Assembly (NCBI RefSeq): GCF_015624485.1
Contig: NZ_CP061378.1
Location: 992,001-1,056,000, forward strand
From: Bradyrhizobium genosp. L
GTDB lineage: Bacteria; Pseudomonadota; Alphaproteobacteria; Rhizobiales; Xanthobacteraceae
DNA length: 64,000 nt
Reading direction: 5' to 3'
The translations under genes and the position numbers were made by a program. The notes beneath the pieces were generated by a model, which was not told the DNA's origin, did no database searches, and was given only the letters and a program-made list of their open reading frames with translations. Below are positions 1 through 27,651 of this stretch, one piece after another. Each line of letters starts with the position of its first letter. Position 1 is the stretch's first letter.

Positions 1-1241
1 CGGCGAGCGGCGAAGGTCTCGTCGTCCGCCTTGCTGTTGAACGGCTTGTCCAACGGCATGACCTGGCGGGCGCGGGTCATCGGCTCGACTGCTTTGAAGC
101 CGGCTTTGGCGAGGGCCTGATTCAGAGAGACACCAATGTCATGGCGGTCGGGCCAGGAAATGCCGGTGCCGCCGGGCAGCCAGTCATCGCCATGCACGGT
201 TCCGAGGCGCGGCAGCACCCAGAGCCCGTCCTCATCGACCACCGGCTGGGCCAGCTCGGCCGGAGCGAGGGCGGCACGGCCGGTCAGGCGACGAACGAGG
301 TCGAAGACCTTCTGATCGTCCTTGTGCGGCCAATAGCCGATCGTGGGTCCATGTTCGCCCTTGGACGGTGCCGGGCCGCTTCTGGCGCGGAAGTCGAACG
401 AAGTGTGGCGATAGACGTCGGCAGAGGCGGACTCCATCGCCGGCATGAAGACGTCAAGCGCGCGATTGGGGTCATTGCGGCCCGTCCATCCGTCAACGGC
501 CCCCCAATTGCGGATGGAAGGCCGGGCGAGGAGGTGCAGCTGCGGACGCTCGGGATAAGTCGGTGTGTAGAGAGTGATGACCTCGCTCCAAAGGCCCCGC
601 TTTGTCTGACGCGGCGGGAAGGCGACCAGCTCTACTCCCGTGAAGGCATCGCTTTGTGCGGCCTTGGCCACGAGCACGCGTTGCGCACCGCTCCGGAAGC
701 GCAGGTCTTGACCTGCCAACGCGCCCAGCGCGTGGGCGGCGATCGCATCGAACAGAAGATTGTCCGCCGGACTCGGGCAGGCGCCCTTCTGAGCCTGCAG
801 CGCGCCATTCACTTGCAGTTTGGTCCAACTGGCCGTGTCCATCGCGGTCCCGGCAATCGCCGCGCGCGTCGGCGCCGGCTTATCGGGGTAGATCAGGGTC
901 AGCCATAGGCCGATCGCCGCCTGGACGCGCCGACGCAGGTCTTCGTCGGTGGCGACATCGCCTGTGATGAAGAAGGAAAGAGGCCGACTCTGGGTTTCGG
1001 CGTCGAACTGGTGGCGCCGCATGAAGGCGATCTCGGGAACAAACCAGGCCAGGATCTCGGAGAGCCCATCGAGGCGCAGGGTCGACGGAGCGTCATTCGG
1101 GCGCTTGGATTTCTCGCGCGACCATGCCTGCAAGGTTTCTTGCGCGTCTGGGGACAAACGGTAGCGCGTCAGCACCAGATTATCCTGGGCGGTGAAGCCG
1201 GCTTCCCAGACATTCAGGTCGAGCGAATTGACGTTAGCCAT
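1..1241 (-). CDS. pPIWI-RE protein, N-terminal part (cut by window edge)
   Basis: The reading frame is open from ATG at 1241 to the window edge, giving about 413 residues without a stop. It starts MANVNSLDLNVWEAG and contains FFITGDVATDEDLRRRVQAA and GWTGRNDPNRALDVFMPA, which I recognise as the N-terminal pPIWI_RE/DUF3962-type region that precedes the RNase H-like PIWI domain. The PIWI domain, with the conserved Arg and Glu that name the family, would lie to the left and is not visible. The start overlaps the helicase stop by 8 bp, so the two are translationally coupled. pPIWI-RE proteins are Argonaute relatives predicted to bind guide-target hybrids in defence against plasmids and phages. 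Identity is inferred from partial sequence plus the two diagnostic partner genes upstream. Confidence 0.8.
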   Translation of the reverse strand, partial: MANVNSLDLNVWEAGFTAQDNLVLTRYRLSPDAQETLQAWSREKSKRPNDAPSTLRLDGLSEILAWFVPEIAFMRRHQFDAETQSRPLSFFITGDVATDEDLRRRVQAAIGLWLTLIYPDKPAPTRAAIAGTAMDTASWTKLQVNGALQAQKGACPSPADNLLFDAIAAHALGALAGQDLRFRSGAQRVLVAKAAQSDAFTGVELVAFPPRQTKRGLWSEVITLYTPTYPERPQLHLLARPSIRNWGAVDGWTGRNDPNRALDVFMPAMESASADVYRHTSFDFRARSGPAPSKGEHGPTIGYWPHKDDQKVFDLVRRLTGRAALAPAELAQPVVDEDGLWVLPRLGTVHGDDWLPGGTGISWPDRHDIGVSLNQALAKAGFKAVEPMTRARQVMPLDKPFNSKADDETFAAR

Positions 1242-4200
1242 AGGCGAGGCCCTTGGTCTTGGAGAGCGCATCGCGGAATGGCTGGTAGAGCAATTTCGCG
1301 AGTGTTCTGGCGGTGGGATCGGACGACGCCATGGCGATGTCGAGCTGGCGCAATGCCTGGACGAGGGCGCTGCTGTCTGGCGTGTCAGTTGCGCCGTCGA
1401 AGGAGAGAGGCGCGAACTGCCGGTCGACAAAGCCGATGTGCACGGGGCAGCCGTTGCGAATGCCACGGCCGATGGTCTGCCAAAGCGGGGTCAGCATGTC
1501 CCACGCGAACTGGGCCTTGTAGTCGGTCGAGAGGCCGCTGTAGCCGCCGCGAGCATAGAGGCTGTAGCGCACGATGTTGGTGGCCGCGTAACGCATGCGG
1601 CGGGCGCGCTGGGACAGGCGCTCGTCAGGCTGGCCGGGATCTGTGCCCATTCCGCGGTCGAAGCGCTCGACGCCGAAGCGGTTCAGCCGGCCGATCACCG
1701 CGGCCAGGTCGTCCGGCCGTGGGTGGGGTCGGTGCAGGAAATAGATCGAGGCGATCGCTGCGCGACTTTCGCGATTGAGGATATTGTGGCCGCGGGCGAC
1801 CACTTGCATCGGCGCCACTAGGATCGATTTTTCCGGTTCCTCGCCGAAGCGTTCGATGAGGGAGCGGGGAAGCGGCCTGGCGCGTCGCAGGCGATGATCG
1901 TCCGGCGCGCCGGCGTCATCGGCTTGGTCCCGTGTCAGGCAGAACACCCGCCAGTCGGCCAAGCCGTGGGTCTCGAGGCTCTCAAGCAGCATGTCGGCGA
2001 CGATTGCCGCATCCGTGTAGGAGTTGGTGACGAGAAGGGCGCGGCGTCGCCCGCGCAGATGCTCGTCGCCCCATTCACGGGCCATGCGCAGCCAGTTCTC
2101 CTCGATCAGGTTGAGGTTATCGCGACGGGCGGACAGGCGCGCGGCGACGCCACTCAAGGCCCTGCGGCGGTCTGCTTCCCGCAGGCCTGAAATCCGAACC
2201 TGCTTTCCCTCCTCGTTGCGCAAGGGCACCAGCTCGAACACGGAGCGTCCAATTGCATCGAGCTCGGCCTGGGGCTGCAATAGCACGCCTTGGGCCGGGA
2301 CTTGCACGTCGAAGCTCGGCGACGCGCAGTCCATGGGCTTCCCTGTTTTGGGATTGAACTGACGTTGGGCACCGCCGGCCCAGCTCGTGCCACTGAGCAT
2401 CAGCACGTGGGGACCGGCCTGACCTTCGCTGGCGAGCAGGTCGTGCAGGTGGGTGAGCAGGTGGCGGCCGACCCCGAGGTGGTTGATGAGGGTCAATTTG
2501 CCGCCCATCGTGTCGCGCCGATCCTCGCTTGGCTCGTCATACAGTAACCCGAACACCGCTCCGGCCGGGTTCGACGGGAGCAGCGTGCGGTAGTGGCGGA
2601 TTAGATTGCCGGCCTGGCTCAGCAACTGGGCGTCGTCGATCCCGAGGTCGGTGGCCACGGCCGGTTGGGTCTTCACCAGCCAGTAATAATGGGACAGGAC
2701 GAGGTCGGTGACGATCGCAAGCAACAGCGCAAGCGCATTGCCGTGGGGGCTCATCGCCGCCTTGCTTGCCGTGGCGCTGGTGGCGTTGAACGCCGATAGT
2801 GGACCGTCCAGGAGATCGCGGACCCGTTCGGTCAGATTTTCATAATAGTCGCTGACCACCATATCGCGGGCGATGGCCTGAAGGGCATCGCTTGCGGACT
2901 GGAAGGCGGGATTGCGGAAGGGTTGTCGCGCCTCGTCGGCTTGTTCCTCGGCCTCGTCACGGCTGACGGCCGACCCTTGCGAAAAGCGCGAGATGCTTCC
3001 GGCGACCTTGATGACCTCGAGGAAGTCTTCCTCGAAATCCGGATCGTCGAAGCTGCGACCGGGGCGGGTGAGGCCCTGCACATCCTGCCGCCGTCGCCAA
3101 ATTTCATAGAGGATGCCGCCGGCGGTGAAGGGCGTGTTGCGGTAGAAGTCAGCGAGATAGGCCTGCTCGTTCTGGAGAAGAGCGTAGAGCGTTCCGATCA
3201 GGCGGTAGAATGTGTGGAAGTTGGCCTGCCAGCGAGCGTTCACCTGACGGCGAAACTGGACTCCGCTGCGCTCGCGCAACGCCTCGGACGACTTGGTGCC
3301 GATTGCCGGTGCATAGACGTCGCGCTCGTCACCCATGATCGGTGAGCGTGGCGCGAAGATATCGTCGAGGGTTTTTTGGACGGAGTCGACCTCATCGACG
3401 ATCATCAAGTCCAGGGTGTGCTGAAACAGTTCCGGCAAGGTCAGATGCTGCGCCGATGTCCATTTGTCCGGCGTCATGTGGACGAAGGCCTGGGGCGTAA
3501 GGGCGATAACCTGGGCGGTGACGGCGCTACGCTGCTGCTCCTGAGCCGGGCACCGCGTCCATAACGGACATGACCTCTGGGCGCCGACGCCATCGTCGTC
3601 GTCAACCGCGTCTTCCTCGGCGAGCTCCGCGTCGCGGCGACGCTGATAGATCCTGTGGCAGGGCTTCTCCTTGAAGGTGGGGAAAGCGGGCCGCTGGCCC
3701 GCTCCGCGGACGACGGTCGGATCGCGCTGGAAGCCGTCGAGCGGACAGGCGACGCTGAAGTTTTCGGCGACGTCTCCGACAGCCGACACCGACCAACCCG
3801 AGGACGACAGGCCCTGCTGCCAGTGGATGGAGTTCAGGTGGCGGTCGCGATTGTAGAAGCTTGAGAGCACCGTGGCGCTGACGCCGTGCATCCGCAGGCG
3901 GGCGATCAGGGTCGCTCCCTGGATAGTGTCGGTGACGAGGATGCCAATGCGCTTGCCCTGACCGCCGAGAGTCAGGGCCAGCACGACAAGCCACACCAGG
4001 GTAGATTTGCCGGAGGACAGCATGCCGAGGACATGGACGGCGCCGTCCAAGGTCAGGGTTTCGCCGTCGAAGAAGCCTTCCTTAAGGCCTTCGAGCTGGA
4101 GTTTATTGAGACGCTCGCGCAGCCGAAGCGGCGGGAGGGTCGAGGGCCAGTCCGATTGAGCTTCCCGCGCGTCGACCGTTTCGGCGGCGGCCCGCAGCTG

Positions 4201-4797
4201 CGCCAGGGTCAATGTGATTGGCGCATGGCGGTGCCGCCGCGGGATGGCATGCTTGGCCGCGGCCGCCGCATCCGGATCGGCTACGGGGATTTGGTAGGCG
4301 AGCAGCGTCTCACCGCGGTTGGTGCGGACCAGCGCGTCGCCTGCGCTGGCCAACTGCAGGACACGGGCGATCCAGGGCGCGGGCGTTTGCAGGTGATCGG
4401 TCAGGACGGCGAGCACGCCTTCAGGCGCGCTGCGCCGCAGGGTGGGGATGCGGCCGTTGATGGCGTAGCAGCGCATCGTTTCCGGCGTGAGGCCGTGTCG
4501 ACGGCAGGCGTCGAGCCAGGCCGAGGCCGACATGTAGCGGCCGGCCAGGTGTCGCAGGCTCGTCAGATCGCGCAGGAAGGCCGGATCGGCGCCGGCTGCC
4601 ATGACTTTCGCATAACCAAGCAACAGATAGGGAAGGGCCGATACGTCCTCGTCGGGACAGTGGCGCGCCAGGAAATGAAGACATAGCTCGGTGAGCGCGA
4701 GTATGCGGTCCTCCGCCGCGGGGAGATCGCGCGCCGCGGGATCGGCGCTGCGCAATGCCTTGCGGTAGACCTCCAAGAAGGCGCGATCCGTCCTCAT
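1234..4797 (-). CDS. pPIWI-RE-associated DinG-like superfamily 2 helicase
   Basis: This is a 1187-residue helicase. The Walker A motif GMLSSGKST is at residues 258-266 and the DEVD Walker B at about 468-471. Four cysteines lie between them at about 351, 380, 410 and 416, spaced like the iron-sulphur cluster of DinG/XPD helicases. A C-terminal helicase half contains VVARGHNILN and IGRLNRFG. The N-terminal 230 residues match the extra region typical of pPIWI-RE helicases. It starts at ATG 4797, overlapping the upstream REase gene by 4 bp (ATGA), and ends inside the pPIWI-RE start. The expected role is to unwind or translocate on nucleic acid for the PIWI protein. The family assignment rests on motifs and gene order. 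The exact substrate is unknown. Confidence 0.85.
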   Translation of the reverse strand: MRTDRAFLEVYRKALRSADPAARDLPAAEDRILALTELCLHFLARHCPDEDVSALPYLLLGYAKVMAAGADPAFLRDLTSLRHLAGRYMSASAWLDACRRHGLTPETMRCYAINGRIPTLRRSAPEGVLAVLTDHLQTPAPWIARVLQLASAGDALVRTNRGETLLAYQIPVADPDAAAAAKHAIPRRHRHAPITLTLAQLRAAAETVDAREAQSDWPSTLPPLRLRERLNKLQLEGLKEGFFDGETLTLDGAVHVLGMLSSGKSTLVWLVVLALTLGGQGKRIGILVTDTIQGATLIARLRMHGVSATVLSSFYNRDRHLNSIHWQQGLSSSGWSVSAVGDVAENFSVACPLDGFQRDPTVVRGAGQRPAFPTFKEKPCHRIYQRRRDAELAEEDAVDDDDGVGAQRSCPLWTRCPAQEQQRSAVTAQVIALTPQAFVHMTPDKWTSAQHLTLPELFQHTLDLMIVDEVDSVQKTLDDIFAPRSPIMGDERDVYAPAIGTKSSEALRERSGVQFRRQVNARWQANFHTFYRLIGTLYALLQNEQAYLADFYRNTPFTAGGILYEIWRRRQDVQGLTRPGRSFDDPDFEEDFLEVIKVAGSISRFSQGSAVSRDEAEEQADEARQPFRNPAFQSASDALQAIARDMVVSDYYENLTERVRDLLDGPLSAFNATSATASKAAMSPHGNALALLLAIVTDLVLSHYYWLVKTQPAVATDLGIDDAQLLSQAGNLIRHYRTLLPSNPAGAVFGLLYDEPSEDRRDTMGGKLTLINHLGVGRHLLTHLHDLLASEGQAGPHVLMLSGTSWAGGAQRQFNPKTGKPMDCASPSFDVQVPAQGVLLQPQAELDAIGRSVFELVPLRNEEGKQVRISGLREADRRRALSGVAARLSARRDNLNLIEENWLRMAREWGDEHLRGRRRALLVTNSYTDAAIVADMLLESLETHGLADWRVFCLTRDQADDAGAPDDHRLRRARPLPRSLIERFGEEPEKSILVAPMQVVARGHNILNRESRAAIASIYFLHRPHPRPDDLAAVIGRLNRFGVERFDRGMGTDPGQPDERLSQRARRMRYAATNIVRYSLYARGGYSGLSTDYKAQFAWDMLTPLWQTIGRGIRNGCPVHIGFVDRQFAPLSFDGATDTPDSSALVQALRQLDIAMASSDPTARTLAKLLYQPFRDALSKTKGLAYG

Positions 4798-6083
4798 GGC
4801 GTCAGCTCTTCGAGGAGATCGGACACGGTGGCGATCGCGACGGCCGGACGGCCGTTGGCCGCGCGCAGAGCTTCAAATCGCGCCTCAAAGCGAGGATCCG
4901 TCTCGATGATGTAGTCGGGGATGACCAGATAGCAGTGGTGGTCGGCCTCGAAGGTCTTGAAGCCGTTGAAGCGGCTGGCGAGGCGAGCCGGCGAGATATA
5001 GTCCTTAACATCGATGGCCAGCCGTCGGCTACTGTCCGGGGCTATTGCCACAAGGTCCACCCGATCCAGGCTCGGCCACAGTTTCGTTGTCCACCCCAGG
5101 GAGTCGAGCCCGCGTTTGAGTTCGAGCTCCGCCAGTCCCGGAAGCGCCCAAAAGGTCCGGAAGGCGCGCTTTAAATAAAGCATTCCAGGGCGGTACTTGA
5201 GCGTTGCGTGCACGCCTTCGCGGGCTTTGCGGATGGCTTCAGGCTGGCGACATTCGGTGTGGAAGGCGCGACCGTCGCGGCGCAGGATCGTCTTGCTGAC
5301 CGTGCAGATTGGCAGTTCTCCGTTGATCGCGAAGCTTTCGGGAATCCGGTCGTAGAAGGCCTCGACGATTTCGTCCGATCGTTCGAGGGTGGCGAGCAGC
5401 GGGTCCATGAGGATGGCTGTGGACCAACTCGTCATGACCACGTTTTCGATGATCGTTTTCCGCCAGGTCCGGTAGAGCGCTTCGCCATCGACACGATCGC
5501 GGCAGAGGCCCACCAGCATCTCGTAGCCGAGGTTCTCTTCGATCTCGGATTCGGGATCCCCTCCAGGCAGCGCCAAGGCACGGCACGCAGTGCTGGCCTC
5601 GCCGGACTCGACGAGCCGCACGGCGAGATAGTCGCCGCCCGCATCCCAGCTGACGTCCGGAAGCCACCGGAAAAGAGGCTCCTTGGCACGACGCATGAGC
5701 CCGTGAAGATCCGTAGGCCAGACGTTATCGCCATCGGCGAGGTTGCGCGCAGCGCCCAAGTCGAACACGCGCCGGACAGATGGTGGATAGGGCGCCCTCA
5801 GCCACCCTTCGGCGTCGAGACTGGCCTGGATTTGGACGATGGCGCTGGCGATCAGAGTGACCATCTCGCGAACGCCGTGGACGGGCGCTTGGGGGCCTTC
5901 GAGCTGCGCGAGCTTGGCAAGGACATCCGGCGCTACGCCTGCCGGGTCCTCAAGATAGCGGTAAAGAGTGGCGCGGCCGATGCCGAGTTGCTCGGCGGCG
6001 GCCGTCTTCCAGCGGCGGCCATAGCCAAGTTTCTCCGAAAAGAGCGCTTGGGCACGCTGAGGGAATGAGGCCGCATCGACCAC
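4794..6083 (-). CDS. pPIWI-RE-associated HTH-REase protein
   Basis: This 429-residue protein is the first gene of the minus-strand pPIWI-RE operon. Residues 25-60 (WKTAAAEQLGIGRATLYRYL) form a helix-turn-helix. The C-terminal half carries a PD-(D/E)XK nuclease signature: Asp343 in RVDLVAI, then Asp358-Val-Lys360 in LAIDVKDY, with candidate motif I glutamates near 319-321. Cysteines at about 260 and 278 may add a structural site. This HTH plus REase layout is that of the REase which accompanies pPIWI-RE proteins. The start is GTG at 6083, with AAGGAG eight bases upstream. The next gene overlaps by 4 bp. The HTH may autoregulate the operon or guide the nuclease; neither is shown. Confidence 0.85.
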   Translation of the reverse strand: MVDAASFPQRAQALFSEKLGYGRRWKTAAAEQLGIGRATLYRYLEDPAGVAPDVLAKLAQLEGPQAPVHGVREMVTLIASAIVQIQASLDAEGWLRAPYPPSVRRVFDLGAARNLADGDNVWPTDLHGLMRRAKEPLFRWLPDVSWDAGGDYLAVRLVESGEASTACRALALPGGDPESEIEENLGYEMLVGLCRDRVDGEALYRTWRKTIIENVVMTSWSTAILMDPLLATLERSDEIVEAFYDRIPESFAINGELPICTVSKTILRRDGRAFHTECRQPEAIRKAREGVHATLKYRPGMLYLKRAFRTFWALPGLAELELKRGLDSLGWTTKLWPSLDRVDLVAIAPDSSRRLAIDVKDYISPARLASRFNGFKTFEADHHCYLVIPDYIIETDPRFEARFEALRAANGRPAVAIATVSDLLEELTP

Positions 6084-6114
6084 GAATCAGTCTCCTTGAA
6101 ACAAAAGAGACCAT

Positions 6115-6132
6115 AGTGTATCAAGTGTATCA
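6115..6132 (-). promoter_or_regulatory. Tandem 9-bp repeats upstream of the pPIWI-RE operon
   Basis: Two direct copies of AGTGTATCA lie side by side at 6115-6123 and 6124-6132, about 32 bp upstream of the GTG start of the HTH-REase gene. They sit in the 147-bp divergent region between this operon and abiE. Their place suggests a binding site for a regulator, perhaps the HTH of the first gene. No clear -35/-10 pair was found for the minus strand. Confidence 0.4.
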
Positions 6133-6183
6133 CGGCAACAAAGCCTTAGTCCACCGCCGGGAATGTCCACAAACCTAACCACA

Positions 6184-6223
6184 TTGAAAACTGTCAGAAA
6201 GGAGCATATATTTCTGACAGGAG
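6184..6223 (+). promoter_or_regulatory. abiE promoter with perfect inverted repeat operator
   Basis: TTGAAA at 6184-6189 and TATATT at 6207-6212 are separated by 17 bp, a good sigma-70-type promoter. A perfect 10-bp inverted repeat, CTGTCAGAAA at 6191-6200 and TTTCTGACAG at 6211-6220, overlaps the spacer and -10 box. AGGAG at 6219-6223 lies 7 bases before ATG 6231. AbiEi antitoxins are known to repress their own promoter by binding inverted repeats, so this is the expected operator. The predicted transcript start near 6219 leaves a very short leader. Confidence 0.75.
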
Positions 6224-6230
6224 CATGATC

Positions 6231-6824
6231 ATGCAGCGGTTAACCGAACAGATTCTCGCGCATGCGGAGGGGTTGTCGGAAGGCACGCCCGTGGCGGCTA
6301 AGAGCTTGCTTCATCTCGGTAATCGTGCCGCGGTGGATCAGGCATTGTCGCGTCTGACCGAGCGAGGTCAACTGATCCGCGCCGGTCGCGGCGTTTATCT
6401 CCGTCCCATCACGAGCCGGTTCGGCACGAGGGCTCCCTCCGTCCAGCAGGCGGTCGAGGCGCTCGCCAACCAACGCGGCGAGGTCATCGTCCCGAGCGGG
6501 GCGGCAGCCGCCAACACCCTCGGCCTCACGACCCAAGTGCCGGTTCGGTCGGTCTATCTGACCTCCGGCCGCAGCCGAACGATGAATCTCGGCAAGCAGA
6601 TCGTCGAACTTCGTCACGCTCCGCGCTGGCAACTCGCCCTGGCTCATAAGCCGGCTGGCGAGGCGGTGCGTGCGCTGGCCTGGCTTGGGCCGGAGAAGGC
6701 GGAAGCCGCACTGAAGATGTTGAAGCGGAAGCTCTCGCCGTCCACTTTCAGCGAACTTGTGGCGGCGGCGCCGCAGCTTCCAACCTGGCTCGCGCGCAGC
6801 GTGGGAAAGGCGGCGCATGGCTGA
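6231..6824 (+). CDS. abiEi: AbiEi-type antitoxin / transcriptional repressor (DUF6088)
   Basis: A 197-residue protein with an N-terminal winged helix (residues about 1-60, ending GRGVYLRP) and the AbiEi antitoxin C-terminal region around PSGAAAANTLGLTTQVP and the Gly-Arg-Ser-Arg stretch. ATG 6231 is preferred over ATG 6225, because AGGAG is 7 bases from 6231 and only one base from 6225. The gene overlaps the downstream toxin gene by 8 bp. It is predicted to antagonise the nucleotidyltransferase toxin without stable binding (type IV toxin-antitoxin) and to repress the promoter just upstream, which carries a perfect inverted repeat. AbiE systems act in abortive infection and in stabilising mobile elements. 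Confidence 0.85.
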   Translation: MQRLTEQILAHAEGLSEGTPVAAKSLLHLGNRAAVDQALSRLTERGQLIRAGRGVYLRPITSRFGTRAPSVQQAVEALANQRGEVIVPSGAAAANTLGLTTQVPVRSVYLTSGRSRTMNLGKQIVELRHAPRWQLALAHKPAGEAVRALAWLGPEKAEAALKMLKRKLSPSTFSELVAAAPQLPTWLARSVGKAAHG

Positions 6825-7830
6825 CGCCTTTCTCCACCTTCCGGTCGCCGACCGCCGCGAGGCGCTGAGCGTCGCGGCCGATCAGTCGGGACGCCCAGCG
6901 CACCTTCTCGAGAAGGATGTGTGGGTGGTATGGGCGCTCGCCACGCTCTATGGATCGGCGCTCGGCGAGCATCTGGTGTTCAAGGGCGGCACGTCACTGT
7001 CAAAGGCTTATGGGGTCATCCGGCGGTTTTCCGAGGACGTCGACCTGACCTACGACATCCGGGCGATCGCGCCGGACCTGGTGGGGGCCAACGGCGAGGC
7101 GTTGCCGAAAACGCGGAGCGAGGAGAAGCGCTGGTCGAGCGAGGTGCGCAAGCGCTTGCCGCAGTGGGTGGCGGGGAACGCCCAGCCGGTGATCGCGGAC
7201 GTGCTGGCCGCGGAGGCGTTGGCTGCTGCCATCCGCGTCGAGGACGAGAAGCTGTTCATCGACTATGAACCGATCGCGGCGGGCTCCGGGTACGTGACGC
7301 CGAGCGTGATGCTCGAGTTCGGCGCGCGATCGACGGGCGAGCCGGCAAGTCTGCGGGACATCGCCTGCGACGCATCCGGTCTGATCGAAGGCGTGACGTT
7401 TCCGACGGCACGACCACGCGTCATGCACGCCGAGCGAACCTTCTGGGAAAAGGCGACGGCGATCCACGTCTTCTGCCTGCAGGAGCGACTCCGCGGCGAT
7501 CGCTTCGCACGACACTGGCATGATGTCGTGCGGCTGGATGAGGCCGGCCTTGCGGAAGCGGCTTTCGCGGATCGCGACCTGGCGGGCGCAGTCGCGCGCC
7601 ACAAGGGCATGTTCTTCGCCGAGAAGGCGGCCGATCGCAGTCCGATCGACTACGTGGCCGCCGTGAATGGCGGTTTGCACCTCGTGCCCGGCGGCGATGC
7701 CTCCAAGGCGCTGCGAGAAGACTACCGCCGCATGGTCGATGACGGATTGTTCTTGGACGATGCCGAACCCTTCGAGGCGCTGATGGCGCGATGCGCCGAC
7801 ATCGCTGCGCGGGCCAATCGCGCGGCGTAA
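6817..7830 (+). CDS. abiEii: AbiEii-type nucleotidyltransferase toxin
   Basis: A 337-residue protein of the AbiEii/AbiGii family. The nucleotidyltransferase core is plain: KGGTSLSKAYG at residues 56-66 and SEDVDLTYD at 72-80 form the G-S and D-x-D motifs of the polymerase-beta fold. Further family blocks are MLEFGARSTGEP (165-176), ERTFWEKATAIH (206-217) and RHWHDVVRL (232-240). The start is ATG 6817 inside the antitoxin gene; a longer in-frame start upstream would lie wholly within abiEi and is not likely. Family members transfer nucleotides to cell targets such as tRNA, stopping growth; the target here is not known. The gene ends 25 bp before gajA. Confidence 0.9.
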   Translation: MADAFLHLPVADRREALSVAADQSGRPAHLLEKDVWVVWALATLYGSALGEHLVFKGGTSLSKAYGVIRRFSEDVDLTYDIRAIAPDLVGANGEALPKTRSEEKRWSSEVRKRLPQWVAGNAQPVIADVLAAEALAAAIRVEDEKLFIDYEPIAAGSGYVTPSVMLEFGARSTGEPASLRDIACDASGLIEGVTFPTARPRVMHAERTFWEKATAIHVFCLQERLRGDRFARHWHDVVRLDEAGLAEAAFADRDLAGAVARHKGMFFAEKAADRSPIDYVAAVNGGLHLVPGGDASKALREDYRRMVDDGLFLDDAEPFEALMARCADIAARANRAA

Positions 7831-7855
7831 TAGAAAAGAAAGCAGGGAGAGAAAT

Positions 7856-9640
7856 GTGCGTATTTCGCGGGTAAAAATCAGCAACTTCGCGAATTTCTCG
7901 GAGATCGACGTCGAGACTGGCGAAAGCATCGTCATCGTCGGTGAGAACAAGGTTGGCAAGAGCAACTTCGTCCGTGCGCTGCAACTGATCCTCGACCCTG
8001 GTCTTTCTGAACGTGATCGGCAGCTCGGGCTTGAGCATTTCTGGGATGGCTTGGGAGAAGACAAGCTCGGGGAAACGATCGAGGTCGCGGTCGAGCTGAC
8101 CGACTTCACGGGCGATCCGCGGTTGATGGCGCACCTCAACGACTGCGTGGTCGATCCGGGGCCGCCGATGGTTGCGCGTCTCACCTACCGTTTCCAACCG
8201 AAGGCCAATCTCGGGCGGGATCCGGAGAGCCTCGCCGACTATGAATACATCGTTTTTGGCGGCAACGATCCGGAGATGTCCATCGGGCCGTCGCTGCGAC
8301 GGATGCTTCCGCTCGACGTGCAGGTCGCGTTGCGCGATGCCGAGAAGGATCTGTCGAGCTGGCGCAATTCGCCGCTAAGGCCTTTGATCGAGGAACTGGC
8401 GACCTCTCTCGATGAAGACGCGCGGGCCGAAATCCAGGAGCAGGTCAACAAGGCGCAAGCCGAGTTGGTCAGCCATGATGAAGTGGTCGCAACCGCCGAG
8501 CGGATCGGCCAGCGGCTGATCGCGATCGCCGGCGAGCAACATGCGGTGCCGTTGACGCTCGGCCTCGCGCCGACCCGGGTTGATGCGCTGCTGCGCAGCC
8601 TGCGTCTCCTGATCGACAATGGTGCGCGCGGCATTTCCGATGCCAGCCTTGGGACCGCCAACCTGATCTTCTTGGCGCTCAAGAGCCTGGAACTCGATCG
8701 GCTCGTGACGGATGGCGAGCGCGACCACACTTTCTTTGTCGTCGAGGAGCCGGAAGCGCACCTTCACCCGCACATCCAACGTCTGGTTTACCGCTATTTC
8801 CTCGGCCGCGGCGGGGATGACGAGGAGCAGACGCCGCCACTCACAACCATCCTGACCACGCATTCGCCGCATATCGCGAGCGTCACCCCGATCCGGTCGG
8901 TCGTGCTGCTTCGTCAAGACGCGGCGACAAATGCGACGATCGCCGTTTCGACGGCCAAGGCGCCGCTCGACGAGCGCGACGAGGCGGACCTCCAGCGCTA
9001 CATCGACGTAAGCCGTGGCGAGATCTTCTTCGCTCGCGGAGTCATCCTGGTCGAGGGCGACGCGGAGCGGTTTCTCGTGCCTGCCTTCGCCGAGGCGCTG
9101 GGCATTCCGCTCGACATGCTGGGCATCACCGTATGCTCGGTCAGCGGCACGAACTTCACGCCCTACGTCAAGCTACTGGGTCCCGAGGGCCTCAACATTC
9201 CGCACGTCATTTTAACCGATCGCGACCCGAACGGAACGAAACCTCCACTGGTCCGACGTCGCCTGATCAATGTCCTGCGGTTGGTCGAAGACGGCGTGAA
9301 CTATACGCCTCTGGATGCCGACGCCGTTATCGCGCGTGCGGAGGCGTTCGGGTATTTCGTGAACAGCAACACGCTCGAGCTGGAGCTGTTCGCCGGCGGC
9401 CTTGCTGAGGCGATGCAGGAGGTCATCGAACAGGAGTTATCGATCGGTCAAGCGACGCGCGACCTGATTCAGGGATGGGTCGACGACACCGACACTCTCG
9501 ACGAGGAGCAACTGATCAAGATCATCGAGCGGATCGGAAAAGGGCGCTTCGCGCAGGCGCTGGCGCCGTACGTCGATGAGGATACGTGCCCGGACTATGT
9601 CCGGCAGGCGCTGGAGTATATCCGCGATGCCGTTACGTAG
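7856..9640 (+). CDS. gajA: Gabija GajA: OLD-family ATPase-Toprim endonuclease
   Basis: A 594-residue protein. It has an ABC/SMC-type ATPase with Walker A GENKVGKS (29-36), a signature-like region near SLGTANLIFLALK (264-276), Walker B VVEEPEAHLHPH (295-306) and an H-loop TTHSPH (334-339). A Toprim nuclease domain follows, with Glu400 in LVEGDAE and DRD at 455-457. The start is GTG 7856, with AGGGAG 7 bases upstream; the nearby ATG at 7854 is out of frame. The stop overlaps the next gene by 14 bp. Paired with a UvrD-like helicase, this is the GajA half of Gabija, a DNA nickase complex that senses nucleotide depletion during phage infection. The catalytic residues appear intact. Confidence 0.9.
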   Translation: MRISRVKISNFANFSEIDVETGESIVIVGENKVGKSNFVRALQLILDPGLSERDRQLGLEHFWDGLGEDKLGETIEVAVELTDFTGDPRLMAHLNDCVVDPGPPMVARLTYRFQPKANLGRDPESLADYEYIVFGGNDPEMSIGPSLRRMLPLDVQVALRDAEKDLSSWRNSPLRPLIEELATSLDEDARAEIQEQVNKAQAELVSHDEVVATAERIGQRLIAIAGEQHAVPLTLGLAPTRVDALLRSLRLLIDNGARGISDASLGTANLIFLALKSLELDRLVTDGERDHTFFVVEEPEAHLHPHIQRLVYRYFLGRGGDDEEQTPPLTTILTTHSPHIASVTPIRSVVLLRQDAATNATIAVSTAKAPLDERDEADLQRYIDVSRGEIFFARGVILVEGDAERFLVPAFAEALGIPLDMLGITVCSVSGTNFTPYVKLLGPEGLNIPHVILTDRDPNGTKPPLVRRRLINVLRLVEDGVNYTPLDADAVIARAEAFGYFVNSNTLELELFAGGLAEAMQEVIEQELSIGQATRDLIQGWVDDTDTLDEEQLIKIIERIGKGRFAQALAPYVDEDTCPDYVRQALEYIRDAVT

Positions 9641-11444
9641 CGTCAGCGCTGCCTATCTTGCCGAAGCGGGCGATCTGGCCGGCAACCCGGGTCAGCAGGC
9701 GGCCTATGACTCGACGGGAAACTGTGTCGTTCTCGCGGGGCCTGGTAGCGGCAAGACCAAGACGCTGGTTCTCAAGCTCGCGCGGATCATGGCGGAGGAC
9801 GTCCGCGCGCCGCGCGGTGCGGCGTGCATCACCTATAGCCAGGAATGCGCGCGCGAGCTGACACGCCGGCTCGAGCGATTGGGCCTGCGCGAGGCGCCCA
9901 ATCTCTTTGTTGGTACAGTCCATGGTTTCTGCCTGAGGCATCTCCTCATGCCCTATGGACGGCTTGCCGATCTTCCGGTGCCGTTCCCGCTCGCCGTGGC
10001 CACGCAGAGGCAGAGCGACCAGGCGATGAAGCGCATCGGCGATCGACTGTTCGGCGTTGGCCACCCGAACAAGCCCATGGACCTTGGGCGGCATCGACGG
10101 TCGGTCCTCGACAGAACGTCGATCGCCTGGACCAACGAGGCGGAGCTCGCCGCATGGGCGGATGGATATGAGGCCGAGCTGCGTCGGTTGGGTCTGATCG
10201 ACTTCGATGATCTCGTGATCTTCGGACAGCGACTGGTTTCGGAGCACGACTGGGTGCTCCCGCTGCTTCAGGCGAAATTTCCGGTCCTCGCGGTCGATGA
10301 ATATCAGGACCTCGGCGTGGCGTTGCATCGCATCGTCAAGCGTGTGGCCTTTGATGGCGGCATTCGGCTCTTTGCGGTGGGAGACTCCGACCAGTCGATC
10401 TACGGCTTCACCGGCGCCGACGGAGCACTGCTCCAAGAGCTGGCCGAGCGGGATGATGTCGAGCGGGTTCAGCTTCAGCTCAACTATCGTTCGGCGTCGC
10501 GCATCGTCAGCGCGTCCGAAATGGCGCTTGGCGAGGCCCGCGGGTATCGGTCGAACGACCCGGACCGGCAGGCGGTCATCGAATTCGTCCAATGCTCCGA
10601 TGGTCTTGAAGGACAGGCCGCGCAAGCAGTCGCCGAGATCATTCCAGCAGCTCTCGCCGCCAAGCCCGGACGCGCGCTTGGCGACATCGCCATTCTGTAC
10701 AGGGATTATCGGGTCGGCGAAGTCGTTGCCGAAGCCGTCGCTGCTGCGGGCTTCGATTTCGTTCGCGTTGACACCGCGGCTCCCTATCGGAAGGTTGCGC
10801 TCACGAGCTGGATCGAGGACTGCGCCGCCTGGTGCTCCGGCGGTTGGCGCGAGGCCCGGCCACAGTTGCGTGGTCTGCTCGACCGCTGGCTCGGATTTCA
10901 TCGTACCCGGATCTCCGAAGTCCAGGCGCGAGATGAATCCCAGCGTCTGACGCAGCTTCTGTGGTCCCTTCGCGTCGAGAAGGGACTCGCTCGGGATTTC
11001 GTGACCGGCATGCGAGCAGATATGCTCGATGCGCTAATGGCGGCCGAGCCCAGTCTCGCTGATCAGCGCGAACAAGTGGACCGCATGTCGGCGGCTCTCG
11101 CCGTCGGCGGACCGCTGGCCGATCTCGACCTTGCGAGCCTTGGCGGTCGCGACGGCTCTCCGCTGCACCTGAACTTGTTGACGCTGCACTCCGCGAAGGG
11201 GTGCGAATACGATGTTGTGATCATGGTTGGTCTCGATCTAGGGAGTTTGCCCTGGCGCAATGAATTGCCCGCCGCCCGCCGCGAGAGCCGGCGGCTCTTC
11301 TATGTCGGCCTGACACGCGCTCGGGACGAAATCCATATGCTCTACTCTGGCTACGTCGACACGGGCCGCGGCAGGATGCATTGGGGGCGCTCTCCTTTCC
11401 TGGATGAACTTGAAGCGCGGATGGAGGAGGCCGAAGGCGAGTAG
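9627..11444 (+). CDS. gajB: Gabija GajB: UvrD/PcrA-like helicase
   Basis: A 605-residue superfamily 1A helicase. The Q motif lies around NPGQQAAYD (20-28), Walker A AGPGSGKT at 37-44, VDEYQD near 223-229, GDSDQSIYGF near 252-261, LTLHSAKG near 518 and FYVGLTRARDEIH near 558. ATG 9627 is chosen because it overlaps the gajA stop and the protein then begins just before the Q motif, as usual. It lacks the long C-terminal region of housekeeping UvrD. In Gabija, GajB binds the GajA tetramer and is needed for phage defence, probably by sensing DNA ends and consuming ATP. The downstream REase begins 3 bp after the stop, so all three genes probably share one transcript. Confidence 0.9.
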   Translation: MPLRSVSAAYLAEAGDLAGNPGQQAAYDSTGNCVVLAGPGSGKTKTLVLKLARIMAEDVRAPRGAACITYSQECARELTRRLERLGLREAPNLFVGTVHGFCLRHLLMPYGRLADLPVPFPLAVATQRQSDQAMKRIGDRLFGVGHPNKPMDLGRHRRSVLDRTSIAWTNEAELAAWADGYEAELRRLGLIDFDDLVIFGQRLVSEHDWVLPLLQAKFPVLAVDEYQDLGVALHRIVKRVAFDGGIRLFAVGDSDQSIYGFTGADGALLQELAERDDVERVQLQLNYRSASRIVSASEMALGEARGYRSNDPDRQAVIEFVQCSDGLEGQAAQAVAEIIPAALAAKPGRALGDIAILYRDYRVGEVVAEAVAAAGFDFVRVDTAAPYRKVALTSWIEDCAAWCSGGWREARPQLRGLLDRWLGFHRTRISEVQARDESQRLTQLLWSLRVEKGLARDFVTGMRADMLDALMAAEPSLADQREQVDRMSAALAVGGPLADLDLASLGGRDGSPLHLNLLTLHSAKGCEYDVVIMVGLDLGSLPWRNELPAARRESRRLFYVGLTRARDEIHMLYSGYVDTGRGRMHWGRSPFLDELEARMEEAEGE

Positions 11445-11447
11445 TCA

Positions 11448-12353
11448 ATGATGTCATTTCGAGAAGCTCAGACGGTCGAAGATCTGGCGGACCTCCTCTA
11501 CGATTTCCTTCCCGGGAGCGGCAACAACCGGACTGCCTTTCCGCTCGCCGCCGCACAGGCAGGAGTCGGCGATCTGTGGATTCCTGGCAGCAAGCGACCC
11601 GCGATCGTGCAGCTCTTGAGCACGACGCTAGAACAGCGCCGGTCATGTTTTACGAAGTTGATCGTGGCGATCGTCCGCCAAGCGATGACTTACCGGCGCG
11701 GAAAGGGCAATCCACTGAGCCGAGAGGAGATCGATCGGCTCAATAGCCTTCTTCCCGGCGTGCAATTCAAGATTCCAGAGCTGCTCGATCCGAGCTTCCT
11801 CAGCAGCTTCGGCTCGCCGAAGGCGACAGAAACTGCGCCGCGGGCGTCGTCGACACTGAGCGCGGAGAAGGCGCAGGAGCTCGCCGCGCTGCTTATCGAG
11901 ATCACGAAGCTCGATCCGCAAGCACGGGGCTTGCGCTTCGAGGGCTTTCTCAATGAGCTATTCGCCGGTTTCGGCCTCGCGCCACGTGGCTCTTTCCGAC
12001 TCGTCGGCGAGCAGATCGACGGCAGCTTCAAACTGCACGGTCAGACCTACCTGGTTGAAGCGAAATGGCACGGGCCTCAGATCGGCTTTGGCGACCTGAT
12101 GACCTTTTCGGGCAAGGTTGGTGGAAAGGCGTCCTGGTCGCGCGGCCTGTTCGTTAGCAATTCCGGATTCACGGCGGAGGGGCTGGAGGCGTTCTCGCGT
12201 GGACGGCAAACGAACCTCATATGCGCTGACGGGCTAGACCTTTATGAGGTGCTCTCGCGCAAGGTCTCGCTGATCGCGGCTTTGGAAGCCAAGGAACGCC
12301 GTGCCGCCGAGACGAACAGAGCATTCGTGGCCGTGCGGGACCTGAATCTATAG
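11448..12353 (+). CDS. Mrr-like restriction endonuclease after Gabija
   Basis: A 301-residue protein with two parts. Residues 1-125 are a helical region of no family I recognise. Residues 160-260 are a Mrr-type PD-(D/E)XK nuclease with Glu165 in [12 protein letters not shown], Asp191 in EQIDGSF and Glu204-Ala-Lys206 in YLVEAKW. The likely job is to cut foreign or modified DNA. It starts at ATG 11448 (ATG 11451 is also possible), only 3 bp after gajB and on the same strand, which points to co-expression with Gabija. It is not one of the two standard Gabija genes. It may be an accessory third component or an independent restriction gene packed into the island. The nuclease call is firm, the link to Gabija is inferred. 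Confidence 0.8.
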
Positions 12354-12468
12354 GGGAGTTGATCGGGCTTGGATCGTGATGACGGTATAAGCAACGATTG
12401 CAGGCTCCGGCGTGTCGTAGTGCGGCATACATAAGGCATCCATATCGACATGGATGCTGTCTCGTCGG

Positions 12469-13194
12469 TCACATTGTGGACCCTGCCGGGTCTTCCTTGA
12501 CGCCGCGGGCGACGATCCGGAGCGTTCCGTCGGCAAGCGGACGCTGCAGCTTCAGGGCCTCGTCCAGAGGGGCTGTCATCCAGGTCTCGACTTCGTCCGG
12601 CGTCGTCAGGATCACCGGCATCGCCTTGGGGTGGATGGCGCCGACCTCGGCGTTTGGCTCGGTCGTGAGAAACGCGTAGAGGTCGTTGGTGGTCTCGCCT
12701 TCCTTGACCTTCCGGACAGACATCCAGTTGGTCCAGATGCCGGCGAAGCAGGTGAGGGGACGGGTCTCATCGAGCGCGAACCAGATATCGCCGCCCTCGG
12801 CCTTGTTGAACTCGCTGAAGGAGTTGAACGGCACCACGCAGCGGTTTTCGGGTCCCAGCCATCTCGTCCAGTGCTTGCTCTTCACGTTGCGGATGTTCGT
12901 CGTGCCGCCGTCCGGCTCCATCCGCAGCAGCTCCTTGAAATCGACGGCCTTGCCCTTGGTCTGCAGCTTCTCGGCTCGTTTCTTGGTGGCGTCCATCAGC
13001 GCTTTTGACGACGACGGCATTCCCCAGCGCGCCGTAGCGAGTTCACGGCCCCCGGGTCCGTTGCGAACGATTGGTGCCTTGTAATCGGGAAACACACCGG
13101 GCATCGGCGCCAGATTGCCGACGTGTCGGTTCACGACGCGGAACAGTGCGCTGATCGCGGCTTGGTTGGTCGTGATCGAGTAGAGGTTGCACAT
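12469..13194 (-). CDS. yedK: SRAP-domain abasic-site protein (YedK/HMCES family)
   Basis: A 241-residue SRAP protein, the usual length. Cys2 directly follows the start Met (MCNLYSITT), as needed for the thiazolidine crosslink to abasic sites after Met removal. The other family marks are NIRNVKS, the PFNSFSEF block holding the catalytic Glu, and HPKAMPVILTT with the catalytic His. These proteins shield abasic sites in single-stranded DNA during replication. It is the last gene of a minus-strand group, 3 bp after the stop of the upstream Cys-rich gene. Its place on a conjugative element, close to Ku, suggests a role in handling single-stranded or broken DNA during transfer, though this is inference. 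Confidence 0.9.
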   Translation of the reverse strand: MCNLYSITTNQAAISALFRVVNRHVGNLAPMPGVFPDYKAPIVRNGPGGRELATARWGMPSSSKALMDATKKRAEKLQTKGKAVDFKELLRMEPDGGTTNIRNVKSKHWTRWLGPENRCVVPFNSFSEFNKAEGGDIWFALDETRPLTCFAGIWTNWMSVRKVKEGETTNDLYAFLTTEPNAEVGAIHPKAMPVILTTPDEVETWMTAPLDEALKLQRPLADGTLRIVARGVKEDPAGSTM

Positions 13195-13197
13195 CGG

Positions 13198-13647
13198 TCA
13201 GGCTTCGGTCCGAGGGTGGCGCGGCTGCCAAGCCAATTGTAGCAGAGTCGCGGAAGGACGCCGGCCCGCCCTGGCGCATTTGCGGCAGCGCAGCCGGCTG
13301 GCGAGATCGTGCACGAAGGTGGTCGGCGGATGCTTCATCGCCGCGAGGTCAACGTCGCTCGGCGTCTTGCAGCGCGCGCACTGGATCTCCAGCCAGGGGA
13401 GGCCTCCATTCACCGCCTGGTCGATGGTGGGCGACGGATCAATCGGTTCTCCATCTGACCACATGCGTTCATTCCAACTCTCACATAGCAGCTTGTCCGC
13501 CTGCTGAATGAGCGCTTCCCCTTTCGCTCGCGTCTCCGCCGATCGGGTGGCCAGGATATTGGCCATTGCCCGCGCCTTGCCGAGCTCCTTCGCCAGAGCC
13601 TTGCGGTCGCCACCCGACAGGGGCGTAGGGTGATACTTCGGGGCCAT
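13198..13647 (-). CDS. Conserved hypothetical protein with CxxC zinc-binding motif
   Basis: A 149-residue protein starting MAPKYHPTPLSGGDRKAL. An upstream Met at 13722 would add 25 residues that overlap the neighbouring gene and do not look like part of the fold. The N-terminal half is helical and basic. The C-terminal half has IQCARCK and LRCRKCARAGR, a pair of CxxC motifs spaced like a zinc ribbon. It sits between another Cys-rich gene and yedK in the same minus-strand group. I do not recognise a named family. A DNA-binding or regulatory role would fit the zinc ribbon but cannot be shown. Confidence 0.65.
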   Translation of the reverse strand: MAPKYHPTPLSGGDRKALAKELGKARAMANILATRSAETRAKGEALIQQADKLLCESWNERMWSDGEPIDPSPTIDQAVNGGLPWLEIQCARCKTPSDVDLAAMKHPPTTFVHDLASRLRCRKCARAGRRPSATLLQLAWQPRHPRTEA

Positions 13648-13694
13648 CCGGACATCCAGGCGCAAAGAGGATCGGATCGGCGATCCAAAGCGGG

Positions 13695-14090
13695 CTACGG
13701 CGTCTCCAACATTGGCCAGCACCCGTCTTCTTCATGTCTCCCAGTGCGCTGCTGGCAGGTGTTGTCGATCAGCCGCTGCGCGACGTCCTTCCAGACCGCG
13801 TTGCCGCCATACAATCGGACTGCATCGGCAGTCTGGATTTCCACGGTTCGCTCGCAGCGGCGGCAGGAGACGCGCAAGACGTGACGCTGAATTTCCGAAA
13901 GACGTCGCTGCCGCATCTCGGCCCCGGTCGCGCCGGCGCGAGGATCTTTGAGGACCGATTCCCAGTATTCGGCCGGGAGCGGCGCATCTGGAGCCGCAGC
14001 GGGGAGAGTTGGCCTGCGAGCAGCTTCGGCGGCCAGTTTTTCCATCTGCTTTGGGGTCGGCATGCGCCAGCTCGCGGGTCGGTCGGTCAT
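13695..14090 (-). CDS. Conserved hypothetical Cys-rich protein
   Basis: A 131-residue protein starting MTDRPASWRMPTPKQMEKLA. The C-terminal half has VSCRRCERTVEIQ followed by DNTCQQRTGRHEEDGCWP, four cysteines that could bind one zinc ion. The block AVRLYGGNAVWKDVAQRLIDNTC looks conserved, of a kind I associate with small proteins from Bradyrhizobium and relatives. It is the first gene of the minus-strand group ending in yedK and is divergent from ku across 145 bp. It has no assigned function. Confidence 0.65.
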   Translation of the reverse strand: MTDRPASWRMPTPKQMEKLAAEAARRPTLPAAAPDAPLPAEYWESVLKDPRAGATGAEMRQRRLSEIQRHVLRVSCRRCERTVEIQTADAVRLYGGNAVWKDVAQRLIDNTCQQRTGRHEEDGCWPMLETP

Positions 14091-14235
14091 TCCGAATTAG
14101 AACATAAAGTGAACAAAAGTCGAGTCCGCTCAAGCCTGCGCCGAGAAAAAATCATCCTTTTGGTAGGGGCGCGGTGTCGGAACCAAGCCGGGCCGTTCGT
14201 CTTGAATCCAGCATCAGTATCGGAGTTCCCCCGCC

Positions 14236-15168
14236 ATGGCCCCCCGCGCTAACTGGAAAGGCTTCCTGCGTCTTTCCCTCGTCACCTGTCCGGTCGCGCT
14301 CTATCCGGCCACGTCGGATTCCGAAAAGGTCTCCTTCAACCAGCTCAACCGGAAGACCGGCCACCGGATCAAGTACGCCAAAGTGGACGCCGACACCGGC
14401 GAGGAGGTCGCCAACGAGGACATCGTCAAGGGGTACAAGGTGGACACCGACACCTTCATCGAGGTGACGAAGGAGGAGCTGGAAAATGTCGCGCTGGAAT
14501 CGACGCGAACCATCGAGATCGACGAGTTCGTCGACCGCAGCGAGATCGACCCGAGGTATCTGATCCGTCCCTACTACTTGGTGCCGGACGGAAAGGTCGG
14601 TCACGACGCCTTCGCCGTCGTCCGCGAAACGATCCGTGAGATGAACAAGGTCGCGATCGGACGGGTGGTGCTGACCAACCGTGAGCACATCATCGCCCTC
14701 GAACCCATGGACAAGGGCCTAATGGGAACGCTGCTGCGCTATCCTTATGAGGTGCGTTCTGCAGGCGAGTATTTCGACGATATTCAGGACGTCAAAGTCA
14801 CCAAGGACATGCTTGATCTCGCCAAGCACATCATCAATCAAAAGGCGGGCCACTTCGAGCCGGACAAGTTCGAAGACCAGTACGAAACCGCCCTCATCGA
14901 TCTCATCAACCAGAAGCGCGCCGGCAAGCCCATCACCGCGAAAGAGCGACCGCGTGGCGAGAATGTCGTCGATCTGATGGACGCGCTGCGCAAGAGCATT
15001 GGCGGCGAAAAGGCGGCAGCGACAGAGGCACCGAAGAAGCCAGCCAAGAAGGCGCGCAAGGCGACGGCCGGGCAGAAGGAAATGCTGATGCCGATTGCCG
15101 GCAAGAAACCGGCCAAGGAGGCCGTGGCAAGGAAGCCGGCGGCCAAACCGCAGCGGAAGTCGGCTTAA
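14236..15168 (+). CDS. ku: Bacterial Ku protein (non-homologous end joining)
   Basis: A 310-residue Ku homolog. It opens MAPRANWKGFLRLSLVTCPV, the typical start of bacterial Ku, with the ring-forming core to about residue 255 including VRETIREMNKVAIGRVVLTN. The tail from about 262 to 310 is rich in Lys, Ala and Pro, like the DNA-binding C-terminal extensions of rhizobial Ku. Ku forms a homodimer that rings DNA ends and recruits ligase LigD. No ligD is in the window, so it must rely on host ligase. Rhizobia often carry several ku copies; this one is on the ICE. It could help recircularise or repair transferred DNA, which is inference. Confidence 0.95.
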   Translation: MAPRANWKGFLRLSLVTCPVALYPATSDSEKVSFNQLNRKTGHRIKYAKVDADTGEEVANEDIVKGYKVDTDTFIEVTKEELENVALESTRTIEIDEFVDRSEIDPRYLIRPYYLVPDGKVGHDAFAVVRETIREMNKVAIGRVVLTNREHIIALEPMDKGLMGTLLRYPYEVRSAGEYFDDIQDVKVTKDMLDLAKHIINQKAGHFEPDKFEDQYETALIDLINQKRAGKPITAKERPRGENVVDLMDALRKSIGGEKAAATEAPKKPAKKARKATAGQKEMLMPIAGKKPAKEAVARKPAAKPQRKSA

Positions 15169-15338
15169 GGTATCCTTGCGGTGGGTTCACGGGAAGCTCG
15201 CTCCGACATGCCGGATGCGTTGAGATATTTCCCGGGCCGGCCGCTCTGTTCGCCCGCTTTGGACGTTCTCTGATCCCGAGCTAGACAGCACGGCTGATCG
15301 AATGGCAGCGTCAGGAGGTCGGTGCGGGGAAGCGTCTC

Positions 15339-15954
15339 ATGGCGAGAAAACTGAAGACCTACCAGACCTCGCTGGGCTTCTTCGATCTGGCGATTGCTGC
15401 TCCCTCCATGAAAGCGGCTCTGGAAGCGTGGGGCGCAGACAGCAATCTCTTCCACCAGGGCGCGGCGAAGGGAGAGCCACGACCCGGACGTCATCGCCGC
15501 GACCATGGCAAAGCCCGGCGTCGTTCTCAGGCGACCGGTTGGAACCGACCGACCTTTCAGCGAACATGCCGAGCTGCCCACCGATCTTGGCGGCGGCGGA
15601 CCAACGAAAGCCGCCCGCAAGTCGAAAGGCCCAAAAGCGAAGAAACCTTCCTCTCGCCCCGTCGACAAGGCTGCGGAACGAAAGGCCGCTCTCGCCTTCG
15701 AAAAGGAGGAGAAGCGGCGCCAGCTTGAACAGGCGAAGGAAGAGACTGCCAGGCAGAAGGACCGTGAACGCCGTCAGCAGGCCATCGACAAGGCGCAAGC
15801 TGCGTTGGACAAGGCCGCGCAGGAGCACGTGAAGCGGGCCGCCGTCATCGAGGCCGAGGTCGAGGCTCTCGAGAAGAGATCGCAAGCCGAAAAAGCCTGC
15901 TGGGATAAGGAGAAGGAACGATTGGAAGCGACGCTGCGGCGCGCGCGGGGTTAG
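15339..15954 (+). pseudogene. TolA-like coiled-coil protein gene broken by a +1 frameshift
   Basis: Frame one from ATG 15339 reads MARKLKTYQTSLGFFDLAIA and continues to the G run at 15470-15472. The continuation lies in another frame, reading DPDVIAATMAKPGVVLRRPV and on to the stop at 15954. Removing one G from GGG would give a single protein of about 205 residues with a Lys/Glu/Arg-rich coiled coil in its second half (RRQLEQAKEE, KDRERRQQAIDKAQAALD). I recall intact versions in Bradyrhizobium, often annotated as a TolA-like envelope protein near ku. Either the gene is truly inactivated or the assembly has an error. An internal ATG at 15505 could still yield a 149-residue C-terminal product. 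Confidence 0.7.
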
Positions 15955-15981
15955 CTTCCGTCATGCCCGGCGCCGGTCCTT

Positions 15982-16245: not shown

Positions 16246-16413
16246 AGGAAGAGCTCCTGATACGGCGAATCGTTTTATCCGTTATTCGTTCCGGCCGATA
16301 ACACATGGCTGGGATTCGCAATGGTGGGAACTCAGGGTTTGGAGTGCTAGCGCAGTGTAGGCGACTCACGCTACCCATCATTCTCAACCACCTCACTGCA
16401 CAATGGGAATGAT

Positions 16414-20211: not shown

Positions 20212-20217
20212 CACAGC

Positions 20218-20282: not shown

Positions 20283-20352
20283 GTGGGCGAGCGCCGAGAG
20301 GGAGAGCCGGGCCGGGAAGGGTTTGAGCCGTTGGGTCAAAGGAGAGCGCCTG

Positions 20353-27627: not shown

Positions 27628-27651
27628 TCAGTTCTTACGGCCGAAAGGCCG

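Follow-up and report, generated by a model that had tools for sequence, protein, structure and literature searches.

A complete pPIWI-RE triad on an integrative and conjugative element of Bradyrhizobium: degenerate PIWI site and probable self-repression of the operon

The window analysed here is the whole 64,000-bp stretch of Bradyrhizobium genosp. L DNA (G000:C1:992001-1056000, in a genome of 7,401,610 bases). At its left end lies a pPIWI-RE system of three minus-strand open reading frames that overlap by 4 and 8 bp in the order HTH-REase (a helix-turn-helix domain fused to a restriction endonuclease), DinG-type helicase, and pPIWI-RE. The HTH-REase gene (4794..6083, 429 aa) starts with GTG and, according to PF18156, PF18154, an alignment of 10 proteins, and a model, encodes an N-terminal HTH, a Y domain, and a PD-(D/E)XK-type REase domain. 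The helicase gene (1234..4797, 1187 aa) starts with ATG and encodes a protein with an N-terminal Z domain, four invariant cysteines, and Walker motifs (PF18155, PprDinG, and an alignment of 11). The pPIWI-RE gene also starts with ATG, overlapping the end of the helicase gene by 8 bp; positions 1..1241 are its visible part, the rest lies left of the window, and the whole gene (884 aa, start and stop checked) occupies L002:12587-15241, i.e., G000:C1:990587-993241. The sequence-only reading had described these three genes and likened them to the layout predicted by Burroughs, Iyer, and Aravind in 2013 (PMC3702460; the papers cited here are represented by excerpts). Coordinates, strand, and overlaps are all as that reading gave them, and the order of REase, DinG-type helicase, and pPIWI-RE with overlaps agrees with the published one.

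According to profile searches, all three proteins match the family. The REase is matched by PF18156 (Y, E = 1.7e-31) and PF18154 (REase, E = 2.5e-20), with weak matches for the HTH, the helicase by PF18155 (Z, E = 4.8e-11) and PADLOC PprDinG (E = 4.8e-136), and pPIWI-RE, over the cut-offs, by PF13032 RNaseH_pPIWI_RE (2.4e-29), PF18157 MID (2.2e-16), and PF13111 X (1.7e-9), as well as by PprPIWI (3.7e-73). PF13032 is found at a single place in the whole genome. The sequence-only reading had made its proposal depend on such matches and on a PIWI domain left of position 1; both were found, the latter with conserved Arg754 and Glu833, and neither absence arose. With X, MID, and RNase H-type domains, the conserved Arg and Glu, a Z-domain helicase, a Y-domain REase, and the gene order with overlaps all present, the locus is, by its sequence, a complete pPIWI-RE triad, cargo of an integrative and conjugative element (ICE). 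It adds one member to a known, thinly tested family, the new elements being the degenerate PIWI site and the probable built-in operon switch.

As for individual residues, the REase motifs D340-R341-x-D343 and D358-V359-K360, which include the nuclease residues Asp343, Asp358, and Lys360 pointed out earlier, are invariant in 10/10 aligned proteins, and the HTH segment RATLYRY is identical in the same 10. In the helicase, C351, C380, C410, and C416, the Walker A stretch GMLSSGKS, and D468-E469 are invariant in 11/11 (the own protein is counted in both sets), in keeping with the Walker motifs and four cysteines noted before, for which metal binding is only predicted. The statement that the system looks intact holds for the REase and the helicase, but not for the PIWI nuclease site.

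The ICE spans G000:C1:968241-1096238 (127,998 bp by a 16-bp repeat), so that the whole window 1..64000 lies inside it. An integrase gene at 1,094,777 adjoins tRNA-Leu(CAA) at 1,096,239, and a 16-bp copy of the tRNA end is found at 968,241. Empty-site matches are given by 3 of 11 same-genus loci (L048, L051, and L053), where the 34-37 bp immediately outside the tRNA match the own DNA immediately left of 968,241 (89-93% over 56-59 bp); their match to a second place, near 895,133, is somewhat less good (86-87%). Together, integrase, tRNA, repeat, and empty-site flanks set the borders, the left one resting on a short flank. According to Pfam, the plus-strand conjugation module (34022..51183) comprises relaxase (34022-35785), TraG/VirD4 (35822-37810), TrbB-type ATPase (41826-42818), TrbE-type (43252-45861), and TrbI (49972-51183) genes, and an MFS gene (38995-40548) lies among them. 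Integrase, relaxase, coupling protein, type IV secretion genes (a subset was scanned), attachment repeats, and empty site thus agree with the ICE that the sequence-only reading had assumed. Its stress on a triad that travels on a conjugative element stands as regards the ICE, but the case is not unique: in PLSDB, 10 plasmid records are matched by the own REase and 19 by an HTH-less one (overlapping sets), with 2 and 6, respectively, typed conjugative. Members of the family are thus habitually carried on conjugative DNA.

Upstream of the REase gene, a minus-strand promoter-like frame (6110..6138, a consensus match only) consists of TTGCCG (6133-6138), a 17-bp spacer, and TATGGT (6110-6115). Within it lies a proposed operator of tandem half-sites, TGATACA-CT-TGATACA (6117..6132, minus strand), and a third, inverted half-site, TGTTTCA, is found at 6097..6103 (minus strand) by comparison of the upstream DNA of 12 loci. 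A block upstream of the REase start is common to the own locus and L006-L008, although the DNA further up differs. The pattern TGAKACA-N2-TGRKACA with at most one mismatch is present at -40 to -62 on the coding strand in 12/12 triads with the own-type HTH, namely own, L006, L007, L008, and L010-L017; L009, where the REase start is cut off, and L018 and L019, where no triad was matched, are left out of this count. The scan covered 12 kb of the own locus and the whole of the others, and within it no match falls outside the upstream region, while L006, L007, and L011 have a second match there on the other strand. Resampled sequence gives 2 matches in 2.59 Mb. The tandem site fills the 17-bp spacer between TTG at -35 (9/12 loci) and TAnnnT at -10 (10/12). 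By looser patterns, the third half-site occurs in 12/12 (partial in L017), 11-13 nt further on in 11 loci and 22 nt in L013. In the 7.4-Mb own genome, the exact pattern is found once, at the own promoter. The Azospirillum plasmid relative L069 carries the site as well. An Rfam scan of the window, L002, and L003 yields nothing at gathering scores.

Some REases with other HTH types have other repeats upstream. A Nostoc plasmid REase with a MerR HTH (PF00376, E = 1.7e-11) shows an 11-base tandem repeat of period 10, and those of Calothrix and Aulosira, with another N-terminal HTH, show TGGAAACAT-type repeats of period 9; this HTH reads as LexA-like in our analysis, whereas the annotation gives Fis family. 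Loci L071-L082, and likewise L065-L067 below two mismatches, were judged by a generic tandem score rather than by the operator pattern. According to this score, the seven HTH-less triads L063, L064, L068, L075, L076, L077, and L078 have no significant tandem site (P from 0.13 to 1.0), and neither do the REases with long N-termini (L079-L082) nor L074. The Nostoc edaphicum REase L073 also has no significant repeat in the tested window (P = 0.56), and its annotated start looks too late by eye. The operator pattern itself is absent from HTH-less L063 and L064 at one mismatch (L063 has one two-mismatch match) and from L068 at two. A divergent WYL-annotated gene lies just upstream in HTH-less L068, L076, L077, and L078, and all those scanned, in three of the four loci, match PF13280. 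Given the operator in 12/12 HTH triads and the lack of a significant tandem site in the seven HTH-less ones, the HTH fused to the REase probably serves as the repressor of its own operon. Burroughs et al. had considered both autoregulation by the HTHs and a role in sequence specificity without deciding between them (PMC3702460), and the operator data favour the former.

As for pPIWI-RE, it is predicted to adopt an Argonaute fold; a sequence search of the PDB gives no match at E 1, and the best match of its profile there (E = 0.28) is unrelated. The sequence-only reading held that few such systems had been tested, and in the cited excerpts one member, PsPIWI-RE of Pseudomonas stutzeri, is examined in vitro and by gene deletion (PMC10991935). 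PsPIWI-RE cuts DNA with RNA guides and RNA with DNA guides, for which it requires D525 and D610, not R639 or E718. Protein P0078, found with a Massilia relative as the query, has 783 residues and carries all four at exactly those numbers; having the same length and residues, it stands in the alignments for PsPIWI-RE and is, we infer, either identical or closely related to it. Five MAFFT runs on 77 proteins (66 own-type and 11 of another clade; P0001, a near copy of the own protein, and the short P0023, P0075, and P0077 are omitted) pair R639 with own R754, E718 with E833, D525 with D626, and D610 with G715. Among the own-type proteins, R754 is kept in 66/66 and E833 in 65/66 (the remaining one has a gap), the D525 column is acidic in 46/66, and the D610 column in 0/66; in the other clade, the latter holds H in 8, N in 2, and D in 1. 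The pair of catalytic aspartates of the guided nuclease is therefore incomplete in the own protein, with D626 at the first position and G715 at the second, and cutting by its PIWI domain appears doubtful. An alternative placing of the loss at the first aspartate, with invariant Q622 and N624 on strand 1, was rejected, since with P0078 in the alignments D525 pairs with D626, which places the loss at the second Asp.

The own protein and PsPIWI-RE share the family and the Arg and Glu columns, but the former has no Asp610 equivalent and is about 100 residues longer. It is unlikely that pPIWI-RE is itself a guided slicer of this kind, with helicase and REase only assisting: guided cutting by PsPIWI-RE, the aspartate on the D525 column, and E714 and E716 on either side of the D610 column speak for it, while the glycine in that column, without a single acidic residue in the own-type proteins, and the only partly acidic D525 column speak against it. 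According to Burroughs et al., catalytic residues are kept in only a subset of pPIWI-RE proteins (PMC3702460). Given the degenerate site, a guided sensor that recruits helicase and nuclease, as in DdmDE, fits better than slicing.

The joint best explanation, for which we estimate a probability of roughly 0.55, is that a guided pPIWI-RE sensor recruits helicase and REase, while the HTH-REase represses its own operon. pPIWI-RE would bind a short guide and recognise DNA complementary to it in a competing plasmid, ICE, or phage; the form recognised may be an RNA-DNA hybrid. With its degenerate PIWI site, it would not be the main cutter; opening of the target would fall to the DinG-type helicase and cutting to the REase, both recruited by pPIWI-RE. 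This would amount to the DdmDE logic with helicase and nuclease as separate proteins. The HTH of the REase would meanwhile bind the TGAKACA sites filling the promoter spacer and keep the three genes low until needed. DdmDE (PMC12409362, PMC12904381) likewise combines an Argonaute-type protein lacking the full active site with an SF2 helicase and a PD-(D/E)XK nuclease, and a WYL-type gene is described upstream of ddmDE, as found in four relatives of the own triad; in DdmD, however, helicase and nuclease are fused, and no sequence similarity to it was found. Targeting by DdmDE is DNA-guided, through an inactive pAgo. The systems of Burroughs et al. (PMC3702460) share all four domain families, gene order, overlaps, the HTH-fused REase, and the conserved Arg and Glu, but the own triad differs in its delimited ICE and conserved promoter operator, no operator being seen in section 6 of that paper. 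BrxR-type WYL regulators (PMC9122589, PMC9122601) also provide dedicated transcription control of a defence operon, whereas the regulator domain proposed here is fused to the nuclease.

Several observations weigh against this explanation. The sole deletion study of the family reports ciprofloxacin sensitivity rather than defence (PMC10991935). On the side of the sensor, metal could still be held by D626, on the D525 column, and by E714 and E716, the neighbours of G715; in a smaller alignment, 30/30 sequences have an acidic residue at position 714. The hhalign alignment of the two clades, which gives these same residue pairs, reaches a probability of just 38.5. Likeness of the REase model to DdmD is modest (rmsd 5-6 Å, Foldseek E = 0.03), Foldseek gives no match for this model at 0.001 or better, and sequence profiles of REase and helicase against the PDB find no DdmD, the best match of the REase profile (E = 0.064) being a TetR-type regulator over the HTH. 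As for the operator, its pattern was derived from the same loci on which it was counted; these are not independent, own/L008, L006/L007, L012/L014, and L010/L015 being alike, and a reversed control pattern likewise occurs once in the own genome. HTH-less L068 has a 7-base inverted repeat upstream, and the generic tandem score reaches P 0.05 at 7/18 HTH-bearing loci versus 0/7 HTH-less ones, so that single loci are weak evidence and conservation across loci carries the argument.

A role of the triad in DNA replication or repair of the host or the ICE, rather than in defence, seems improbable. Deletion of piwi-re in P. stutzeri leads to filamentation and to survival about 15-fold lower under ciprofloxacin (PMC10991935), and DinG-type helicases act on R-loops (PMC3702460), both of which suit such a role. 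A very patchy occurrence fits defence better: in the order, 2 of 297 genomes have PF13032, and in the phylum 3 of 398 have it at E 0.001, of which 2 exceed the cut-off, the own genome counted in each. So does the location among AbiE, Gabija, and Lamassu (LmuA and LmuB) genes on the ICE. Two Mrr-type nucleases, an AbiJ-domain gene, and an accessory AddAB-like pair are further defence-type genes of this element. PF18156 is found in the own genome only among 385 of the class, and PF13032 in 1 of 369 in the class of G555, G555 itself. The nearest named relatives are Bradyrhizobium sp. 141 (98%, L008), Tardiphaga (87%, L006), and Paramesorhizobium (86%, L007); L021, below the cut-off and with one stop, was excluded. 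Phage records searched with the REase give no match, and the one stretch matched by pPIWI-RE among viral contigs is not a relative. No phage or plasmid challenge of the family was seen in the excerpts of PMC3702460 and PMC10991935, and those of PMC7641849 and PMC12342005 do not treat it.

It is very unlikely that the system includes, as its source of DNA guides, the AddAB-like helicase-nuclease pair that lies convergent with pPIWI-RE. The pair adjoins pPIWI-RE in own, L006, L007, and L008 with gaps of 12, 7, 7, and 12 bp, respectively, and is 84-97% identical in the relatives, but it lies on the other strand behind upstream genes of its own, and no such neighbour was matched in L010-L017. In addition, among the 297 genomes, 7 others have an AddB-like gene, with an AddA partner at all 8 loci and a PF13032 match in 0/7. 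The pair (L002:6621-9293 and 9179-12574) was therefore set aside as a member of the system. Least probable of all is that the HTH supplies the REase with its target sequence (restriction at TGAKACA repeats), an option left open by Burroughs et al. (PMC3702460), as the site sits in the operon's own promoter in 12/12 loci, its exact pattern occurs once in the genome, and family REases without an HTH exist.

The joint reading of guided sensor and self-repressing nuclease could be extended, though we regard this as tentative and on the unlikely side. The HTH-REase would keep the promoter closed until pPIWI-RE and helicase draw it onto invader DNA; this would free the promoter, so that recognition raises the dose of the system. 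An ICE-borne operon would then start unrepressed in a naive host and shut itself down, and different HTHs, or a separate WYL regulator, would be repeated re-inventions of this switch across the family, each working through an operator of its own. If true, recognising an invader would directly raise the dose of a guided Argonaute-type system. The locus offers a complete, delimited ICE-borne example with three sharp predictions, i.e., a sensor rather than a slicer, a split DdmDE, and a nuclease that represses itself at a 16-bp site. Lamassu is DdmABC by another name, and DdmABC and DdmDE jointly counter plasmids (PMC12409362); given this cooperation and the Lamassu-type genes on the same ICE, the element may be armed against competing mobile DNA.

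Regarding the neighbouring genes, the LmuA/LmuB pair (L003:9703-12554, G000:C1:969703-972554) lies just inside the left ICE end. Next to it come the gene of a 936-aa protein, which has a UvrD C-terminal match, and those of the two Mrr-type nucleases. The AddB/AddA-like pair follows a 449-aa protein without a Pfam or PADLOC match (L002:5275-12574, G000:C1:983275-990574 for the whole), in place of which L006 and L007 have a second type of Gabija operon. In L054 (G261:C19), such a pair adjoins a 69% relative of the large helicase of strawberry-notch type on the ICE (window 20248-24714), a hint of a related ICE that carries different cargo. Two integrase-type frames of 577 aa each lie 210 kb apart (G000:C1:884650 and 1094777), the left one below the family cut-off. 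Frames of pPIWI-RE far longer than usual, a 10-kb gene in Microvirga (L068:12411 onward) and over 2,800 open codons in L005 (G237), appear to be fused to further domains. Finally, a perfect inverted repeat, CTGTCAGAAA-N10-TTTCTGACAG, precedes AbiEi at 6191-6220 of the window; from 6183-6184 onward, the DNA of the AbiE module is similar to that of other plasmids, and the module thus seems to travel with the repeat.
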